From positions 1-64,000 of the IMG/VR virus record IMGVR_UViG_3300005600_000030: DNA of 64,000 nucleotides; one strand, written 5' to 3'. Below the pieces are notes generated by a model. The model had not been told where the DNA came from, did no database searches, and saw nothing but the letters and a program-made list of their open reading frames with translations. This document shows, piece by piece, positions 4,383 through 64,000 of this stretch. Positions within the stretch are counted from its first letter, which is position 1; each line of letters begins with the position of its first letter. The DNA is from a virus. Position numbers and translations under genes: made by a program.

Positions 4383-5052
4383 CAAAAAGGGAAGTAGAAT
4401 TTTCCTCATTATATTGTGCAATAGTTTCGATTAGGGGTCGTACCCAGTTGTCTCGATGTTCGATAAACACTTGAGGTTCATTGTTATCAACCGAGATTAT
4501 GGTAACCAACTGAGTGATAGGTTGACCAGTACGTTCTTCCCACATGATTGCATACGCAGCTTCTTGCATGAAGTAGTTCTTAATCCAGTCAAGACGTTTA
4601 GGTTTCATCGAAGTTTTGTAATCGATGATTGACGGTTTACCATCAAAGATACCCACGCAATCCACACGACCCGCAACACCCAAATGATTGGAGTATAGTG
4701 GGGCTTCTTGTGCGAAGACCTTAGTCAAACGTTCATCAAGTATTGGTTTCAAATCAAGGAAAGAACCAATAATGTCAGGTGTGTAACCCTCTTTGAAGTT
4801 GGGGTCATTGTTAACATACTTCTCACAGATTTCGTGAACCGAGGTACCACGAGTAGATGCACGATAAGAGACACGATTCGCCTCTTCCTCACCTACACGT
4901 TTACGCCACTTGGCAATACTGTCACGTGACAGAATCGAAAGGACTGTAGTGATAGAGGGAAGGTTGACACCTTCGGGGGTTTTGTATTTGCGGCCACTAT
5001 CGGTGGTCACTGCTTCCATCTCGGTCAATTCGACCGGAACATGTTCAAACAT
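4378..5052 (-). CDS. PD-(D/E)XK exonuclease (RecB/Cas4-like)
   Basis: About 224 residues from the preferred ATG at 5052, which has a GAGAG ribosome site like other genes here; an upstream GTG/ATG near 5091 would lie almost at the transcript start. The protein shows RGTSVHEI, then GRVD about 60 residues on and IDYKTS, the nuclease core G-R-x-D and [DE]-x-K of the RecB/Cas4 family. Similar exonucleases are common in cyanophages. It is a single-gene early unit with its own sigma70 promoter, suggesting host-DNA degradation or recombination. Confidence 0.85.
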   Translation of the reverse strand: MFEHVPVELTEMEAVTTDSGRKYKTPEGVNLPSITTVLSILSRDSIAKWRKRVGEEEANRVSYRASTRGTSVHEICEKYVNNDPNFKEGYTPDIIGSFLDLKPILDERLTKVFAQEAPLYSNHLGVAGRVDCVGIFDGKPSIIDYKTSMKPKRLDWIKNYFMQEAAYAIMWEERTGQPITQLVTIISVDNNEPQVFIEHRDNWVRPLIETIAQYNEENSTSLFV

Positions 5053-5102
5053 TATATATTTCTCTCTTTTGTTTAGGAATTCATCACTCAATTTGTACAG
5101 TC

Positions 5103-5131
5103 ATTATCTCATAATCATAACAAGAAGTCAA
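5103..5131 (-). promoter_or_regulatory. Early sigma70-like promoter of the exonuclease
   Basis: TTGACT (5131-5126), a 17-base spacer and GATAAT (5108-5103) on the minus strand. The sequence is nearly identical to the promoters at 13926, 14196 and 14612. Confidence 0.85.
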
Positions 5132-5168
5132 GTGTTTTTATTGATAAAATGTGACCCAAATGTGAGTT

Positions 5169-5861
5169 TTAGTCGATGGACTCGTAGAACTCGATATCCG
5201 ATGCATAGTATGAACGCAGAAGGTCTATGCAATCTTCGGCCATCCAAGTCGCTATTGGTAGTTTAAGATACTCGGGTGTTGGGTCACCGAGTTGTATCTG
5301 AGGTACATCAGTCTCCGCAAAACCTCCCGCATTACCCACTACGGTAGATAGAACCGTATCCATAGACTCTAGTTTGTACGGAGTTAGTATGAGTTCATCG
5401 TTGTGATAAAAATAATCACGGTAGTTCCATTTGAAATCTAATGCAAGGTCAGTTCGACCATTGAACAATCCATGACGTATCGCAAGAGTCATGGTATCTA
5501 TATTATCACCTTCCCACAAACCGAATGACTTTGCCAACATAAATCTAGACACCCATCTTTCCAGAGGGTCTCGGACAAATGCAAAACTGGTATACTCACG
5601 AAGTTCTTCTAGTGTGATTAGTCCTTGGTCAATCGCCTGTGTAGGCGTCATGTGATATTCATTGAGAGTTCTGGTCGCAAGACTATCTCGTCTTGAAAGA
5701 GTATCCTCATTCATCTCCAAGGATTCTATTTCATCTAGGTTGGTTATCACATCATCATCTCGAGTAGGGAGTTGACTGTTTTCTAACACATACTGGGCAG
5801 AGTTAGACCCTACCCTTGGTACTGAAAAGTATGCGATTTTATGTTGGTGAGATATAAACAT
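5169..5861 (-). CDS. Sulfotransferase-family protein
   Basis: 230 residues. The N-terminal FSVPRVGSNSA resembles the PAPS 5'-phosphate loop of sulfotransferases (P-[KR]-x-G-[ST]-[ST]), and FVRDPLERWVSRF matches the 3'-phosphate-binding R-D-P-x-x-R-x-x-S segment. It would move sulfate from PAPS to an unidentified acceptor, perhaps a host or phage glycan. The start overlaps the stop of the upstream cupin-like gene, so the pair is coupled and lies behind a late promoter at 6500. Confidence 0.7.
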   Translation of the reverse strand: MFISHQHKIAYFSVPRVGSNSAQYVLENSQLPTRDDDVITNLDEIESLEMNEDTLSRRDSLATRTLNEYHMTPTQAIDQGLITLEELREYTSFAFVRDPLERWVSRFMLAKSFGLWEGDNIDTMTLAIRHGLFNGRTDLALDFKWNYRDYFYHNDELILTPYKLESMDTVLSTVVGNAGGFAETDVPQIQLGDPTPEYLKLPIATWMAEDCIDLLRSYYASDIEFYESID

Positions 5862-6466
5862 TATTTCATTTTCCTTGTCACGTCAGCATATCCGTCCACG
5901 ACATACGCATCCGGATAGAATCTTCTAATTAAATCTTCTTGCATTGGGCCTACCGTTTCACCCTTCCATCGAGTTGCAACAGTAGTCATATCTAAATCTT
6001 CGTCCCATCTTTCAAACGCGAGTAAAGGGAACCCTTTATTCAACTGACCTTCACGTTCCTTAAAGTTGATTCCTGCACCATGCGCCTCACCCGCCTTCAA
6101 TATATGACTGGTAATCATTGGTTCCATACCTTCAGGACTTGGATAGTATGGCATTCTATATTTGATAACTTCTACGCCAGGATGTTCATGTATAGGTAAA
6201 TTAGGTGTAGGAAAAATCATGTAGAGTTCTACCTGATACCTTCCATGTCTAAACATACACATCGAGGTCGCATCGTCCGAACGATAAATCTCTGTATCGA
6301 GTGGGGGTGCAAATGGCATATTATTATAGAACCACCATTGTGCAAAATCCTTAACTGTTCCGAAGTCGCCAGGGATGTCAATCTTTCCATCTATCGGGTG
6401 TTCCGGAACAAAACGTTCTCTGTCCCTACTCTCGGGTATTTCAGTTGCTATTAATTTCTCATCCAT
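5861..6466 (-). CDS. Cupin-like protein
   Basis: 201 residues. The stretch PIHEHPGVEVI followed about 40 residues later by EAHGAG gives the His/Glu spacing of a cupin metal site (H-x-H...E...H). No catalytic subfamily is recognised. It starts 34 bases after a TATAAATA box and is coupled to the sulfotransferase-like gene, so both are probably made late. The substrate is unknown. Confidence 0.55.
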   Translation of the reverse strand: MDEKLIATEIPESRDRERFVPEHPIDGKIDIPGDFGTVKDFAQWWFYNNMPFAPPLDTEIYRSDDATSMCMFRHGRYQVELYMIFPTPNLPIHEHPGVEVIKYRMPYYPSPEGMEPMITSHILKAGEAHGAGINFKEREGQLNKGFPLLAFERWDEDLDMTTVATRWKGETVGPMQEDLIRRFYPDAYVVDGYADVTRKMK

Positions 6467-6499
6467 TACGGGTACCTGTGATTACAATGCAGTTTCCCA

Positions 6500-6507
6500 T
6501 ATTTATA
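6500..6507 (-). promoter_or_regulatory. Late promoter (TATAAATA)
   Basis: A perfect TATAAATA on the minus strand overlaps the last codons of the ATP-grasp gene and stands just before the cupin-like gene at 6466. Confidence 0.75.
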
Positions 6508-8101
6508 CAATAAACAACGCATCGAACGTTGGGTCGAGTAACAACATTCTCAGTTGTTCTTGATGAGTACCTTTATGGTACCACTCTTTACCGTCACTCC
6601 ATGTAACCTTTTCACCGGAAAGAACTGCATAACGAATACCTTCCTCCACGTTTTTCAGTACTTCATCTTCTTGTATGACAGGTATACAACAGTCACCTTC
6701 AAAATAGGTATCGATGAACTCGGGTAGGTAACTACGAGAGATACTAGCCGCACAGAATGTAGGAGATGGATTGATGTCAGTAATCACCATATCCGATTTG
6801 TGCCATGGTACCGACAAATCTTTTCCGATGATATCCACACCCGCAATATCCAGACCCAAAACTTTGGTTGCGCGTATCGCCATATCAATATTGTCAGGAT
6901 GAATCTTCTTGGTCATATCCTCATCTATACCACCATCTTGGGTAGACTCTATGGCTCTTAGATAAACCACTTCACCCTCGGCAGGTACAGTCTGACCATC
7001 CATACCCGTGAGTTGTAGATGCAGTTCGGTAGTATAGTCAAAGTGTGCAAAGGGTTCGCGATTCCAGACCGGACGTTTATCTTGACGAGTTTTTTCTTTC
7101 TCATTAAGGGATAATATAGTATCGACACCATTACCTACCACGTAAATAGGGTCACGTTTTACCGCATAGACCATTTTTCCATTGGTGATAAAGAGTCGAT
7201 GACACACACCTTCGACAGGTTTTTCTATCAACAGAACTTTACTGATAGACGCATTCATACCCTTCTGGACTGCACCACGTAACATGGCATCATTGTCCAC
7301 ATTAATAGTCACACCTTCCCCACGGTCACCATCTACAGGTTTGACCACCACAGGGTATCCCAAGTCTTCTACTACCCCTAGTGCATGTTCTAGACGAGTC
7401 ACCATATAATGCTCGGGTGTAGGGAATCCCATGTTCCGTAATGTACTTGACGCAACAAACTTATCCCCTGCAATATCAACACCAATACTAGAATCACGGT
7501 CGGACATACTGCCTTTAATACGTCTCTGAGAACTTCCTGTACCTAGTTGGTAGATACCCTTACCTAGACATACAAAGGGTATTCCACGTTCTCCCGCAGC
7601 CTTGATTACAGGAACAGTTGCATTTGAATATGCGACCATGATACGTATATCAGGTATTACCTTAGACTCTATATGTGACATCAATGATAAGATGTTATTA
7701 TCAGTAGGTTCGGTTGTTAATGATTTGTGACATATCGAGATGGCATGTTGAAGAGAACCAGTGAAGGTTTCTGGCATAAAACCAGACAGACGGTATTGTA
7801 TCAGTTCAACCTCGATGGAATCACCTAGGTCAGTAACCTCGGTAACCATGGGTATCTTGAAAGTAGGGACTCCTACTGCATTCTGGAGAGTTACCGATAG
7901 ACGTAACACACAGTTAAGAAAAGTCACTATCGACTTATCCTTGCAAGGTATAGTTGTCGTCTCCGGACTTATTTCTAAAACATCATTGACCCAGCAGGTT
8001 AACTGTTTGAAGTTCCCACTAGGTTTTTTGATAGTTAACGTTAATTCTGTATCGGGGGTATTGTTAATAATCCCATGAATATCAAGAGGACTCAATGTCA
8101 C
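6503..8101 (-). CDS. Cyanophycin-synthetase-like ATP-grasp ligase
   Basis: 532 residues from a GTG at 8101 that overlaps the preceding stop (GTGA) behind AAAGGAG; the longer frame to 8200 would lie inside the upstream gene. An N-terminal domain of about 150 residues is followed by an ATP-grasp: GIYQLGTGSSQRRI near residue 182, then DIAGDK, then VVVKPVDGDRGEGV at about 251-264, and DINPSP as the metal-binding end. This arrangement recalls CphA, which joins Asp and Arg into cyanophycin. The C-terminus (SDGKEW ... LLLDPTFDA) resembles the start of CphA's Mur-ligase domain but lacks the GTNGKT loop and stops early. The substrate is unknown; RimK-like or GshF-like ligation is an alternative. Confidence 0.7.
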   Translation of the reverse strand: MTLSPLDIHGIINNTPDTELTLTIKKPSGNFKQLTCWVNDVLEISPETTTIPCKDKSIVTFLNCVLRLSVTLQNAVGVPTFKIPMVTEVTDLGDSIEVELIQYRLSGFMPETFTGSLQHAISICHKSLTTEPTDNNILSLMSHIESKVIPDIRIMVAYSNATVPVIKAAGERGIPFVCLGKGIYQLGTGSSQRRIKGSMSDRDSSIGVDIAGDKFVASSTLRNMGFPTPEHYMVTRLEHALGVVEDLGYPVVVKPVDGDRGEGVTINVDNDAMLRGAVQKGMNASISKVLLIEKPVEGVCHRLFITNGKMVYAVKRDPIYVVGNGVDTILSLNEKEKTRQDKRPVWNREPFAHFDYTTELHLQLTGMDGQTVPAEGEVVYLRAIESTQDGGIDEDMTKKIHPDNIDMAIRATKVLGLDIAGVDIIGKDLSVPWHKSDMVITDINPSPTFCAASISRSYLPEFIDTYFEGDCCIPVIQEDEVLKNVEEGIRYAVLSGEKVTWSDGKEWYHKGTHQEQLRMLLLDPTFDALFIV

Positions 8102-56387: not shown

Positions 56388-58196
56388 TTATGCTCCTACC
56401 GTGCCAACAACTTCTTCGAAGTCTACACCAGTTCTAACTGCAACAAAGTTCAATTGAACGAAGTTGATAGAACGTGCAGGTTTCACAAAGATGCTTGCAA
56501 CGAATTGGTTATTGTCCACAACTTCTTGATTGTTGTTTGTTTCATCACATACAACACGGAAGTCAGTTATACCTCTACGACCCTTAACTCTACGGAGGAA
56601 AGGTTCTACAATGTTTACGAATTCTGCACGAGTAAACTCGTCATTGAATTCGAACATTACATTTTTAGCAGCTTCACCAATTGACTTCTCAATCGCAATG
56701 AACAAACGTCTTACGTTGATACGGTCAAATGCAGAAGGTCTGCTTTCCAACGTCTTATCACCAAACAGAATCAGACCAGTGCCTGGAATGTTTGCGATAG
56801 GATTAACACCTGCCTTATATAGGGCATCACGTTGGGTTTGGTTTGGATTCGTCAAGATACCCGTAATACCACGATAGTTACCACGTCTTTGACCGGCAGG
56901 TGAATACCATGGGTCTGCGATAACGTCAGTAGCAGCCATCAGACCCGCAGTGCTTGACGCAGCAGGAATGTTGATGTACTTATCGTTGTACTTATCGAAC
57001 ACTTTGAAGAAGTTGTTATCTACTACTAAGTAAGATGATTTTGTAAGAGTATTCGCGAACGAAACTGCATTGGTTTGTGCCTGTGCATCAGTCTTACCCA
57101 CAACACCTGCTCTATCTACTGAAGTAATAACAACACAGTCTTTACGTGATTCAGCGATTGATACAAGGTCATTTACTACAGAAGTGCCGTTTGCCTCAGA
57201 ACTATGTTGAGGTGCAATCAGGAAGTCAATCTCAGTAGTGAGTTTGTCTTCGAACAGATCGTAACCTTCAGCGAATTCACCAGTACCCAAAGTTGCAGAC
57301 TCTTGTCCACCACCAAGGTTTACTGTGCGAACACCGTCCACAAGACCAGTACCTAGACCGTAGTTTACTGCGGTGTCGGTATCAGGAGTAGTTCCCCAGT
57401 TTCCACCCAGATCCAAGTAATCGGAACCGAATGCAGAGTCATCACCGAAGTAACCATTCCAGATGTATTGAGAGTTTTGGTTCAATACGTCAGAGATATA
57501 GTTAGGTGAATTATCAGGAGTTACTGCACCACGTGCAACAGAGAGGTATTCAAACTTCTCGAGAACAGAACCAACAGTACCAGTGATAGCACCAGTACGG
57601 TCAATGATTGCAACGTGAACTTCATCGTTAGCTGCACCATTGCTGGTTGCATACGCAGAAGTGCCTGGAGCACCATTGAAGTTAGACGCATATGCCCAAC
57701 CAGTAAAGTGGTCTACACTCGCAGAGTCTCCGGCAGGACAGAAAGAAACTGTCAATGCGTTACCCAATTCGCCTGGATATTTTGCAATCCAAGTACCAGA
57801 AGAAGTTGCAGCTGCACCTTCACCTACCGCAGAACTGACAGAGTTTTCCCAATGGTCAAGGTTATTAACCAACATTGAGTTACCGTCAGAATCACCAGCA
57901 AATTTAGTTACTGCACCGTGTGCGTTCTGTCCACCATTGTTCTCGCGAACAACCTGTAGAGTTTGTGAGTATTTAAGAAAGTACGCAGCGGAATGGAAAT
58001 CCACTGAGTTCGTGTCGTCAGGTGCACCAAAAGTTGATACCAGACCTGTTTCGTCTGCAATCAATGTTCTTTCGTGTACTGGGCCCCAACGGAAGTTACC
58101 TACGAAACCACCACCAGATGAACCGACCGCAGGTACTATGCCTGTTTTGTCGATTTCGCTGATATTGATCCGAGGAGATGCGGGTTTAACAGCCAT
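56388..58196 (-). CDS. 18: Tail sheath protein gp18
   Basis: 602 residues (T4: 659). The N-terminal SPRINISEIDKTGIVP and the C-terminal GITDFRVVCDETNNN / ARSINFVQLNFVAVRTG are sheath hallmarks. Late promoter at 58263. Confidence 0.97.
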   Translation of the reverse strand: MAVKPASPRINISEIDKTGIVPAVGSSGGGFVGNFRWGPVHERTLIADETGLVSTFGAPDDTNSVDFHSAAYFLKYSQTLQVVRENNGGQNAHGAVTKFAGDSDGNSMLVNNLDHWENSVSSAVGEGAAATSSGTWIAKYPGELGNALTVSFCPAGDSASVDHFTGWAYASNFNGAPGTSAYATSNGAANDEVHVAIIDRTGAITGTVGSVLEKFEYLSVARGAVTPDNSPNYISDVLNQNSQYIWNGYFGDDSAFGSDYLDLGGNWGTTPDTDTAVNYGLGTGLVDGVRTVNLGGGQESATLGTGEFAEGYDLFEDKLTTEIDFLIAPQHSSEANGTSVVNDLVSIAESRKDCVVITSVDRAGVVGKTDAQAQTNAVSFANTLTKSSYLVVDNNFFKVFDKYNDKYINIPAASSTAGLMAATDVIADPWYSPAGQRRGNYRGITGILTNPNQTQRDALYKAGVNPIANIPGTGLILFGDKTLESRPSAFDRINVRRLFIAIEKSIGEAAKNVMFEFNDEFTRAEFVNIVEPFLRRVKGRRGITDFRVVCDETNNNQEVVDNNQFVASIFVKPARSINFVQLNFVAVRTGVDFEEVVGTVGA

Positions 58197-59897: not shown

Positions 59898-60225
59898 GAG
59901 GAATCACTTGTTTTTCATTGTGTAGGAATCGTTGTAGTTCAGTTGTAGACCCAATGAATATATTATTATTGGTCGTACCGTTAGGTAGTTCTTTTGGTTT
60001 GTCTAGTTGTTCGATTTGTTTCTTTGTTTTATTCAATGCCATCAGACGGTCAGAAACATCCGATACGTTTTTAATCATACCGGACAGAACTTCGAACGCA
60101 CGAGGATGTTCGGACTGTTTTGCCAGTTCCAACATCTCTTCGATACCATCTCTACCCTTTTCGATTAGGTCATAATAAACGTCACGAGAAAACTCGTAAT
60201 CGTCATCCATCTTTTTATCTGTCAT
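59881..60225 (-). CDS. 16: Small terminase subunit gp16
   Basis: 114 residues (T4: 164), acidic and helical with a central coiled-coil, lying directly before gp17. Family call rests mostly on position plus the RAFEVLSGMIKNVSDVSD segment typical of gp16. Confidence 0.85.
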   Translation of the reverse strand: MTDKKMDDDYEFSRDVYYDLIEKGRDGIEEMLELAKQSEHPRAFEVLSGMIKNVSDVSDRLMALNKTKKQIEQLDKPKELPNGTTNNNIFIGSTTELQRFLHNEKQVIPHDDSD

Positions 60226-61007
60226 TAAAATTCACTATCCAAGTATACAGTACTGAATCCATAGTCACTGTCAGCACCAACCCCAACAGGTGTCGGTGTG
60301 GTTTGTAAACGTAGTTGGAAATCTTCCCTGTCACTATCACCCGATAAAATATATAGGTTATTATTAACTTCACGGATAACACCACGAGTGGACATCGGGC
60401 CATAAAAGTTAATCTTCATGTTGAATGACAGAGTGTATATAATTGTTCTTCGGTCTCCGATAGAACCCTCATAACCATCACTGAAAGAAACACCTGACAA
60501 TATAATAGGTACATCTTCGGAGATTTCTGGGTGGTCTGTGTTGAATGGTTTGACCGATATCGTGTACTGAGGATTGAAGTAAGGTAGAATCTGTTCGACC
60601 ATCTGCAATGCATCATCCTGAGACTTTGCGTAGATATTAACCTCAAACCCAATATCGTATGGTACAGAAGAATAGAATTGATTCTTTTTAGTCGCGTCAC
60701 CACCTACCGTAGATGAGAATGAATTCATCTTGGGTAGTTGTCTCACTGGGTCATATGTCATAGAAGTAATCTCGAACGACATACGAGGTAGTTTAATTGC
60801 AACCCTGCGTTCTGCTTCCTCACCATTAGCCATCTCACCTAATCTTTCGATGAAACTCTTCTTGGGGGCGTAGGACAAAGGTACCTTAACTTGAGAGATA
60901 GTCTCTCCCGAAGAGTTTTGACGAAGTACATAGATGTTATTAAACATGGAACCGAATACCGATACCGCAGTTCTTACCCTCTTATGATAAAACCAATTTC
61001 CTAACAT
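60225..61007 (-). CDS. 15: Tail sheath stabiliser and completion protein gp15
   Basis: 260 residues (T4: 272). KRVRTAVSVFGSMFNNIYV, KVPLSYAPKKSFIERL and LPRMSFEITSMTYDP are strongly conserved gp15 motifs. It caps the tail for head joining. Confidence 0.97.
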   Translation of the reverse strand: MLGNWFYHKRVRTAVSVFGSMFNNIYVLRQNSSGETISQVKVPLSYAPKKSFIERLGEMANGEEAERRVAIKLPRMSFEITSMTYDPVRQLPKMNSFSSTVGGDATKKNQFYSSVPYDIGFEVNIYAKSQDDALQMVEQILPYFNPQYTISVKPFNTDHPEISEDVPIILSGVSFSDGYEGSIGDRRTIIYTLSFNMKINFYGPMSTRGVIREVNNNLYILSGDSDREDFQLRLQTTPTPVGVGADSDYGFSTVYLDSEF

Positions 61008-62749
61008 TATGATATATCTCCGAATGGATTACTCTCGCTGAAATCAAGGAAGTCCCCTTCAAAGTCATCGAAGAAATCGTTCTGTGCAGCCAGTTGTATG
61101 TTCTGCAATTCCTGTACCAAAGAAGGTGCATAGGACGCATCCTCACTGACTACCGCATTGCTTGTATTAAACGTATGATATACACCATCGTCCGAACCAA
61201 CGTGTACTAGGTACAACGTGTTGTCCGAGTCAGACCATTTCGCAACTTCACCTTTCATGGTGAATGTCCCTTGGTCTTGACTTACGATAGTATTACGTTG
61301 ATAATTACCACCGGCAGAAGGTGCATCAATAGTTACTATTGGTTCTTCATCATAGTATATACCAGATTCGGTAAGTGCTATTGACTCTAGTATACCACCA
61401 TCTGTGATTGTTGTGGTTGCAGTTGCACTTATTGCATTGAAGTGTAGTAGTTTCGCATCGTAAGTTACGTCATCTTCCCACTCTATTGATTGTATGGTAA
61501 GAGTAGTATCATTACCTACAGTCGCATATCTAGGTTCGAGTATCTGTGCTTTACTACCGACTTGTACACGGAACTCATCAATGAATCCGTCCATTGCAGT
61601 CCAGTCTATACCATCAACAGTACGTGCAGCAGTTGCACCTACCGAGTAACCTTCATCACTCACCCAGTTGAAAGTGACACCTGCGAGGGTCGCGTCCAGT
61701 TTTCTTACGAAGTCGAAGTAGATTACTAGGTTGTTAGTTCCTACACCCGCAATAAGAATATGGTGCCAAGTATCTTCTTCGAATAAGATTGAACTTCCGG
61801 TGAGATTTGTTACACCCCCACCTTGGTTATCTCCTCTACTATACACTAATTGACCCGTTGGGTCAACACCCCAGTAATAGGTATTTGTTAGGTCACCGTC
61901 TCCACCACCTGTTTTGAAAATAATATCTTGACCAGATGAAGGAAGGTTGTTAATATATACCCATGCTTCGATACTACCATGCGCACCTGTCTGCGCATAC
62001 GTACCCTCAGAACCTCGACCACGAGTCACGTTAAGTGACGCATTACCGAACTTAGAATTACTTCCTAAAGCTGCACCAATAGTTAATGTGGGTGCAGTAA
62101 CATAACCTCTACCTGTAGTCTGAACATCAAATCCAACTACCGCACCATCAACATCAATTCGTGATAATGCAGTTGCAGTAGATGCTGCGGGAGATTCCAT
62201 AACCAGTTTGTACTGGTATGCAGATTCTTCTTCAACGTCATCGATACCTTCAATGTCGGTATCAAAGTCTTCGTCATTATATTCGAATAATTCACATTGA
62301 AGTCTGAATGTAGGTAGTTGACTCAACTGATAGAACGGAGTCTCGGTCTCTACTTTATATATCTCAAAGATTGATTGTGATAAAGGAAGATAGATTAAGT
62401 CGCCTTCACGAGGACGGAAGTTATATGCATCTAGTTTGTCACCGATGAGTTTCTTCCATCGTCTACGTGCGCATACAAATGTTGCTTGGTCACGCAACTC
62501 CACACCAAACTTAGAGAAGAGGTCACCCTCTCCTCCAAACGCTTCTGCATTCTCGATATACATCTCGATTTTATATGCGTCAGAAAAATGCGAAGGAACG
62601 TCATCAAGGAATATTTTATCCTTGTTAACAATTTCTCGAGGTAAATAGTATACGTCCTGACCATAGAATTGTAAGGACTCTATTACTATGTCCTCATATA
62701 AATTCTGTTCAGCACGTACTGATTGTGAAATCCAAGGATTTGTTGCCAT
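61007..62749 (-). CDS. 14: Neck protein gp14 with inserted LamG-like domain
   Basis: 580 residues, more than twice T4 gp14 (256). The N-terminal part to about 170 (NLYEDIVIESLQFYGQDVYYLPRE, FRPREGDLIYLPL) and the C-terminal part from about 480 (DFFDDFEGDFLDFSESNPFGDI) are gp14. Between them, about 225-440, is a beta-rich domain with GSIEAWVYI and TWHHILIAG, hallmarks of LamG/concanavalin-like lectin domains, flanked by GRGYVTAPTLTIG-type repeats. Confidence 0.93.
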   Translation of the reverse strand: MATNPWISQSVRAEQNLYEDIVIESLQFYGQDVYYLPREIVNKDKIFLDDVPSHFSDAYKIEMYIENAEAFGGEGDLFSKFGVELRDQATFVCARRRWKKLIGDKLDAYNFRPREGDLIYLPLSQSIFEIYKVETETPFYQLSQLPTFRLQCELFEYNDEDFDTDIEGIDDVEEESAYQYKLVMESPAASTATALSRIDVDGAVVGFDVQTTGRGYVTAPTLTIGAALGSNSKFGNASLNVTRGRGSEGTYAQTGAHGSIEAWVYINNLPSSGQDIIFKTGGGDGDLTNTYYWGVDPTGQLVYSRGDNQGGGVTNLTGSSILFEEDTWHHILIAGVGTNNLVIYFDFVRKLDATLAGVTFNWVSDEGYSVGATAARTVDGIDWTAMDGFIDEFRVQVGSKAQILEPRYATVGNDTTLTIQSIEWEDDVTYDAKLLHFNAISATATTTITDGGILESIALTESGIYYDEEPIVTIDAPSAGGNYQRNTIVSQDQGTFTMKGEVAKWSDSDNTLYLVHVGSDDGVYHTFNTSNAVVSEDASYAPSLVQELQNIQLAAQNDFFDDFEGDFLDFSESNPFGDIS

Positions 62750-62752
62750 CTT

Positions 62753-63514
62753 TTACCCCACGAAGAACATTGGGCCAATGTCTTCTTCTTCTCTAAACTT
62801 GGTCATAAGTTGTTCAATTTCAGTATTCGCATCTTCGAGTATTTGTCTACCCGAGATAGTAACACCGCCTGGCAACTGCATACCTTCGAACTTGGACATG
62901 TTTTGTCCCCACTGACGGCGAATCAATGCGGTTGTATATGCCTTGAGAAACTTGTGGTTCCACAGAGAATTATAATCAGAGTTAGCACCCGTATCAGGGT
63001 CACGTGTACCATATACTTCAAATATTACATAGTTACCTACGGTGAAGTCACCTGCATCATGATAGAAGTATACACGATCTGCCTGTCTATCAAATGTAAT
63101 CTGTGGTTCACCACTTAGTTTCATATCCAACAGTGACAGATGTTGTTGCATCTGTTCATAGTATCCCATGTCACCGCTGAATCTATTTAGGTCTGCAATA
63201 TCATTCAATCGCATCTGATATTTTATGTCAAAGAAGTTGGTAGACGCAGATGCGTTATCCACTCTGAACATTCGAACAACTGTCATCACCTCAGTATCCA
63301 AATCGACATACTTATTATCAATCATTGCCTGAGTGATTTCTTTGGTGATATAATACCGTCTCTTACCGTCCGGATGATGTTCACGGAACCATTGTAGTGC
63401 TTCGTCCACACGGTCTTCTACTTGTTCATCCGCAACATTAATTTCCAATACCGGAGAACCCAAGGCTCTCAAGCAATAATCAATTAGTTCGTCTCTAGTG
63501 TCTGGAGTTGCCAT
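62753..63514 (-). CDS. 13: Neck protein gp13
   Basis: 253 residues (T4: 309). TRDELIDYCLRALGSPVLEINVADEQVEDRVDEAL and the C-terminal region NTEIEQLMTKFREEEDIGPMFFVG match gp13. It joins head and tail with gp14. Confidence 0.95.
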   Translation of the reverse strand: MATPDTRDELIDYCLRALGSPVLEINVADEQVEDRVDEALQWFREHHPDGKRRYYITKEITQAMIDNKYVDLDTEVMTVVRMFRVDNASASTNFFDIKYQMRLNDIADLNRFSGDMGYYEQMQQHLSLLDMKLSGEPQITFDRQADRVYFYHDAGDFTVGNYVIFEVYGTRDPDTGANSDYNSLWNHKFLKAYTTALIRRQWGQNMSKFEGMQLPGGVTISGRQILEDANTEIEQLMTKFREEEDIGPMFFVG

Positions 63515-63524
63515 TTTCTATACC

Positions 63525-64000
63525 TTAGTTAAGTAGTGTACCCGAAGAGTTATACACGTTAATTCTGTAATGTGAACCTTGTTGTCCATCTAGTGTGTCA
63601 GCATCTAATCCAGAACCCGCACCGTCCACGGTTTTGATTGCGGTCAATAGTTCGGTTGGAGTTGAGTACGTCTCTATAGTACTAATAACACCAGATGCAG
63701 AGTCATATGCAATACCCGAACCCGCAACCATTACCCCACGAATTGTGGATGTGTGGTTAGACAGACTTGACACAGTACCAGTAACATCACCAGTTAAGTT
63801 TGCAGTAATAGTACCCGCAGTAAAGTTACCAGAAATATCACGTGCAACAATTGTCGAACCAGTATTAGAAGAAGTCGCAGTAGTTGCAGAGTTCTGTACT
63901 TTACCTGAAGTCGAAATAGTTGCAAGTTTAGTGTCTGCGATATTCGCAGTTGCATTAATCATCGCATTGGTGATGACATTGCTTGCAATACTTGTTGTTA
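63525..64000 (-). CDS. Partial fibre- or structural-repeat protein, C-terminus
   Basis: The frame enters from beyond the right edge (no stop before 64000) and ends at 63525; at least 158 residues. Short Thr/Ser/Ala/Gly repeats (NITGDVT/GTITANLTGDVTGTVS, LDADTLDGQQGSHY) are typical of marine-phage fibre and baseplate-associated proteins. The DADTLDGxxGSHY end is common among them. The internal ATG at 63962 is not the true start. Confidence 0.8.
   Translation of the reverse strand, partial: TTSIASNVITNAMINATANIADTKLATISTSGKVQNSATTATSSNTGSTIVARDISGNFTAGTITANLTGDVTGTVSSLSNHTSTIRGVMVAGSGIAYDSASGVISTIETYSTPTELLTAIKTVDGAGSGLDADTLDGQQGSHYRINVYNSSGTLLN

Follow-up and report, generated by a model that had tools for sequence, protein, structure and literature searches.

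The neck protein gp14 encoded in the 64,000-nucleotide stretch of viral DNA analysed here (the window; positions 1 to 64,000 of IMG/VR record IMGVR_UViG_3300005600_000030) carries a LamG domain within a nested insert, an architecture that we regard as close to certain. As gp14 closes the pressurised head and is conserved across T4-like phages, it is an unexpected site for an optional, fast-changing domain of lectin fold. LamG domains are already known on phage virion proteins; what looks new is that gp14 bears them, and does so at a nested modular site, and literature searches listed no earlier report of LamG on gp14.

The gene occupies 61007-62749 on the minus strand, begins with ATG and encodes a neck or head-closure protein of 580 residues (phrog_460, head closure Hc2). 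Residues 1-176 (62222-62749) form a T4-like N-terminal part, recognised by Pfam family PF11649 (T4_neck-protein) at residues 10-173 (110.6 bits against a cut-off of 25, E 1.1e-31), and a profile built from 40 relatives finds T4 gp14 in the PDB at 5e-31, the alignment ending at position 208. A first GYxxxP beta-repeat follows at about residues 190-232 (62054-62182), placed by alignments and by model strands at 193-198, 204-211 and 222-224, then the LamG or ConA-like domain at about 232-438 (61436-62056), a second GYxxxP repeat at about 443-482 (61304-61423), placed by alignments of relatives, and finally a C-terminal beta segment with a conserved DFSESNPFGD tail at about 484-580 (61007-61300), all on the same strand. 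The first-pass annotation had described an enlarged gp14 with GSIEAWVYI and TWHHILIAG in its reading frame, both of which are present there, and with both ends of the T4 protein retained, which stands for the N-terminus but not for the C-terminus. T4 gp14 (PF11649; PDB 9mkb, 9lu4-9lu7) shares 170-200 homologous N-terminal residues and the gene order gp13-gp14-gp15-terminase, but is 256 residues long, lacks both repeats and LamG, and cannot be aligned in its C-terminal region. A sequence search of the PDB with the last 93 residues did not match T4 gp14, and among named phages these residues match Phage C48C1 only; the tail is common to marine relatives, cyanophages included, and is not detectable in T4. 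The extra sequence, put earlier at about 250 residues, is real but larger: measured against the nearest insert-free gp14s (289-299 residues) it comes to about 290, made up of a LamG of about 206 residues and the two flanking repeat segments.

Pfam, a confident model and structural alignment all back the presence of a LamG-like domain in the insert. Pfam PF13385 (Laminin_G_3) matches residues 257-395 (35 bits against a cut-off of 27.6, E 1.9e-8), the sole match to that family across the 74,179-base record containing the window, and at E 0.01 the family is found in 25 of 40 aligned relatives, 30 of which carry the insert. Structure prediction, proposed earlier as a check, places a beta-sandwich in the insert: an AlphaFold2 model built from the 40 relatives is confident from about residue 178 to 548, with the sandwich at about 230-440, and poor in the gp14 core (pLDDT below 50) and the last 30 residues. 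In VIA-align comparisons, residues of about 229-440 align best with 4dqa, a putative carbohydrate-binding protein (Z 14.6), followed by the pentraxin PTX3 (Z 14.3) and by laminin LG4-5 and neurexin LNS2 (Z 12.8 each); as modelled, the insert is thus a ConA-like beta-sandwich with Z scores of 12-15 to LG and pentraxin chains. The window LamG sequence alone finds no match in the PDB; the profile of 40 relatives reaches LG-type chains of an S-layer protein, an arabinanase domain and thrombospondin-1 at E values from 6e-5 to 0.02. A chance match is ruled out by the agreement of Pfam, profile and predicted fold, and kinship with the clostridial neurotoxins whose binding domains appear in the Foldseek list was set aside as a reflection of the common ConA-like fold only.

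Comparison of gp14 across relatives reveals a single insertion site, flanked by the T4-like N-terminal part and the C-terminal tail kept in marine relatives, that exists in graded states. We compared 94 distinct full-length gp14s, from which reading frames whose N-terminal profile match started after position 6 had been dropped and identical sequences collapsed; the queries that gathered them were three gp14s and one insert, and the counts that follow are therefore not natural frequencies. The site is bare in 35 (289-299 residues), carries a pair of GYxxxP repeats in 10 (366-372 residues), holds LamG between two repeats in 45 (564-592 residues), and in the remaining 4 (678 residues) has repeats and a LamG in which a further, cupredoxin-like module is nested. 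LamG is thus present in 49 of the 94 within this query-biased sample, and the possibility that the insert is universal gp14 sequence is refuted by the bare and repeat-only relatives and by named phages without LamG. An assembly chimera is unlikely, given identical junctions on many separate contigs and 49 distinct LamG-bearing proteins. One gene was excluded from the full-length counts (L040, 1304-2992), its gp14 frame halting after 56 codons through either a sequencing error or a broken gene. A LamG profile matched 147 reading frames in 238 loci, many of which are copies of one contig; 143 of these frames have the gp14 N-terminal region and the other four, cut by contig edges, have the gp14 C-terminal region. 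As all 147 are gp14, the fetched flanks give no sign that insert-free relatives have LamG relocated to an adjacent gene.

The additional module of the 678-residue form spans about 100 residues, at about 413-520 of its model (L043, 2555-2893; likewise in L044, L045 and L055). VIA-align rows for this form extend over model residues of about 230-561 with only 146-182 residues aligned, and the added module would therefore sit within the LG fold. Its resemblance to cupredoxins is weak (best E 0.066), with copper proteins making up all 15 PDB matches up to E 1. Type-1 copper sites use His, Cys, His and Met as ligands, and the same residues stand at ligand-like places in the four aligned rows, recalling such a site. 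Sequence akin to this module is also found in structural proteins of named cyanophages.

Among named phages, the nearest by both gp14 and portal identity is Phage C48C1, whose gp14 is insert-free at 292 residues; its portal is 72% identical to that of the window, followed by Methylophilales, Pelagibacter and cyanophages at about 52%. The incomplete 74-kb record showed no match to a psbA-type gene, which would be a sign of a cyanophage host. Sixteen cyanophage gp14s (phrog_460; 373-657 residues) share the expansion site, the DFSE/DFTE-NPFG tail and the GYxxxP repeats with the window protein, but fill the site with two to nine GYxxxP-like motifs, counted with a loose pattern, and in none of the sixteen was LamG found. 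By Pfam and by LamG profile, the domain is absent from these and from C48C1 (17 gp14s), and it was not found in gp14 of Pelagibacter phage Mosig, giving none in 18 named gp14s, a small share of the 2359 records in which gp14 was matched. Searches by tblastn of 50,697 phage records returned nothing for the window insert (E 0.01) or for that of L035 (E 0.1). The L032 insert matched 32 records and the L043 insert 27; none of the 12 matches listed for the former was labelled a neck protein, nor was any for the latter. LamGs of the same Laminin_G_3 family, distantly similar to those of gp14, occur elsewhere in cyanophage virions, in P-HM2 gp7 and in giant structural proteins of syn9 and S-MbCM6, differing in that they are borne by baseplate wedge or fibre-like proteins and fall on the opposite side of the LamG tree. 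Methylophilales phage Melnitz encodes a 677-residue F5/8 type C (discoidin-like) protein between its small and large terminase genes (L256, 3011-5044).

Trees of the gp14 core were built from 75 rows after collapsing identical cores. At least four changes of LamG state are forced by the starred branches of the careful tree, a single clade of all LamG rows is rejected (p-AU 1.15e-5), and the 17-row LamG clade that contains the window has as its sister an insert-free pair, L056 and L057 (19 rows, support 100/98). In a quick LamG-only tree with long branches and a root set by three LamGs from other virion proteins, the gp14 LamGs lie together on one side and broadly repeat the core groupings. The simplest reading of these sequences would be a single gain of LamG and then recurrent loss, the repeat-only form being a remnant in that lineage. 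Where cores are 70-80% identical (290 of 561 LamG-bearing gp14 pairs), the mean identity of LamG is 37% against a core mean of 74%. In the 13 of 561 pairs with dS between 0.05 and 1.2 in both regions, which are drawn from few clades and are non-independent, the N-terminal core has a median dN/dS of 0.05 and LamG one of 0.21. LamG is under purifying selection and much less constrained than the core, evidence that stops short of positive selection. Scaffold residues invariant over 34 rows include G246, G258, G281, H330, G371, G388, D391 and E392. For the pair formed by L006 and L009 (gp14 genes at 5001-6752), exchange is hinted at by a LamG dS of 0.11, far under the core dS of 0.63, and the LamG segment may have been swapped by recombination.

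The best explanation, to which we would give roughly an even chance, is that LamG forms a dispensable, neck-borne display ring that contacts glycans or fibres weakly and multivalently. On its C-terminal arm, gp14 would bear an optional display module in which LamG is held between the two beta-repeats as on a stalk. T4 gp14 is a hexamer, and by analogy each neck probably carries six LamG copies, which would form a ring at the top of the tail. The module would face outward with no part in head closure, for which the insert appears dispensable in insert-free relatives because their gp14 cores are intact. Its binding would be weak and multivalent, with host glycans and other surface polymers or the fibres of the phage itself as targets, and would supplement the fibre adhesins whose genes lie alongside. 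A secondary receptor or whisker-like contact, suggested in the first-pass annotation, is plausible and fits an insert that is optional in close relatives and evolves faster than the core, in a neck whose gp13 is without most of the whisker domain. A display role is supported by the kindred modules on other tail-associated virion proteins of cyanophages, and by the fibre-like genes beside the neck genes together with the host recognition cluster that adjoins gp14 in pelagimyophages, whose structural proteins carry concanavalin A domains (PMC7029224). Against it, the site also accepts non-lectin modules, as in the 10 repeat-only forms and the cyanophage repeats, and host contact is not obvious for an adhesin on the neck, far from the baseplate.

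The neighbours of gp14 bear on what else the insert might do. Upstream lies gp13 (62753-63514, minus strand; 253 residues; phrog_211, head-tail adaptor), and directly upstream of gp13 are two fibre-like genes of 1140 and 667 residues, the former labelled by PHROG tail fibre matches of its C-terminal end, which lies in the window at 63525-63998 (minus strand; full frame in L239), and the latter by inspection. Beyond the window, at record positions 71614-74178, is a frame of at least 854 residues that is open at the contig end (L239, 11615-14179, minus strand) and is built almost entirely from short repeats of GNYTRDFAGEYTR / STRTST-like type, with a high content of Tyr, Thr and Arg. In T4, fibritin whiskers dock on domain III of gp13, residues 190-239 (PMC12270204), and an alignment around this domain counts 34 residues in the window gp13 and 69 in its T4 counterpart. 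Together with the adjoining fibre-like genes and the lack of a Fibritin_C match in the record (an incomplete record, searched without any control match), this shortening lends some appeal to a collar that handles fibres, in which the LamG ring would bind, hold or sense the long fibres of the phage in place of T4 fibritin whiskers. We consider it unlikely: gp13 is similarly short without the insert (251-274 residues in bare-gp14 relatives, 243-259 in LamG relatives), so LamG does not track the loss of the whisker site, and a simple replacement whisker is disfavoured. Since the lengths of gp13, and of gp15, are alike in all gp14 states, the whisker site is reduced lineage-wide, with LamG no one-for-one replacement.

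On the other side of gp14 lies gp15, the tail sheath stabiliser (60225-61007, minus strand; 260 residues; PF16724), which is itself insert-free. The region of T4 gp14 in which the insert would fall, residues 178-256, is ordered upon gp15 (PMC12270204), and cyanophages occupy the site with repeats only; both are in keeping with a structural spacer, whereby the repeats and LamG would stiffen or shield the gp14-gp15 joint without any ligand. This we rate slightly lower than the fibre-handling collar, as gp15 is of the same length with the insert (246-260 residues) or without it (253-260), and repeated loss of LamG and its faster change than the core are unlike a joint. A large added part is seen on another neck ring, in Pelagibacter phage Mosig, where gp15 (L257, 7386-8984, minus strand) is 532 residues long, double the usual length, with the gp15 family at residues 5-247 and no second Pfam family in the extra half. 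The window's tail sheath protein (56388-58196), in which Pfam finds sheath families only, may carry extra sequence as well, being 602 residues long compared with 516 in C48C1. Least probable is tolerated cargo, whereby recombination would have carried the domain between virion genes of marine phages and left it without use on gp14; this would account for the related LamG and cupredoxin-like modules in other structural proteins, for the one pair that hints at exchange and for the repeated losses, but sits poorly with the purifying selection on the module and its invariant scaffold.

The display ring has partial counterparts elsewhere. The collar protein gp13 of Phage Milano carries on the neck region a decorating D domain that is similar to glycan-interacting proteins, differing in that it belongs to a separate 15-mer collar protein rather than to a head-closure protein, and is described as of unknown function (PMC10491603). 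T4 fibritin (wac) whiskers are likewise neck appendages that could contact fibres or sense their surroundings, but each is a separate trimeric fibre on gp13 domain III (PMC12270204), a domain mostly missing in the window gp13. Detection of gp14 in purified virions of cyanophage S-SM1 shows that the protein is part of the virion there, and does not concern the LamG form (PMC3037559). A broader proposal, which we put forward as a tentative possibility rather than an expectation, is that the gp14 arm is a general display port on the necks of marine T4-like phages, its nested modules exchanged and lost, with the ring serving in host choice or particle tethering apart from fibritin and the tail fibres.

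Among close relatives, some lack the graft through loss and others have built further onto it, a pattern that points to an optional surface appendage of the neck. Furthermore, bare, repeat-only and LamG forms of a nearly identical protein exist naturally, and the idea is therefore directly testable. If the ring does bind hosts or fibres, these marine myophages would have a second adsorption contact, one that surveys of tail fibres have overlooked.
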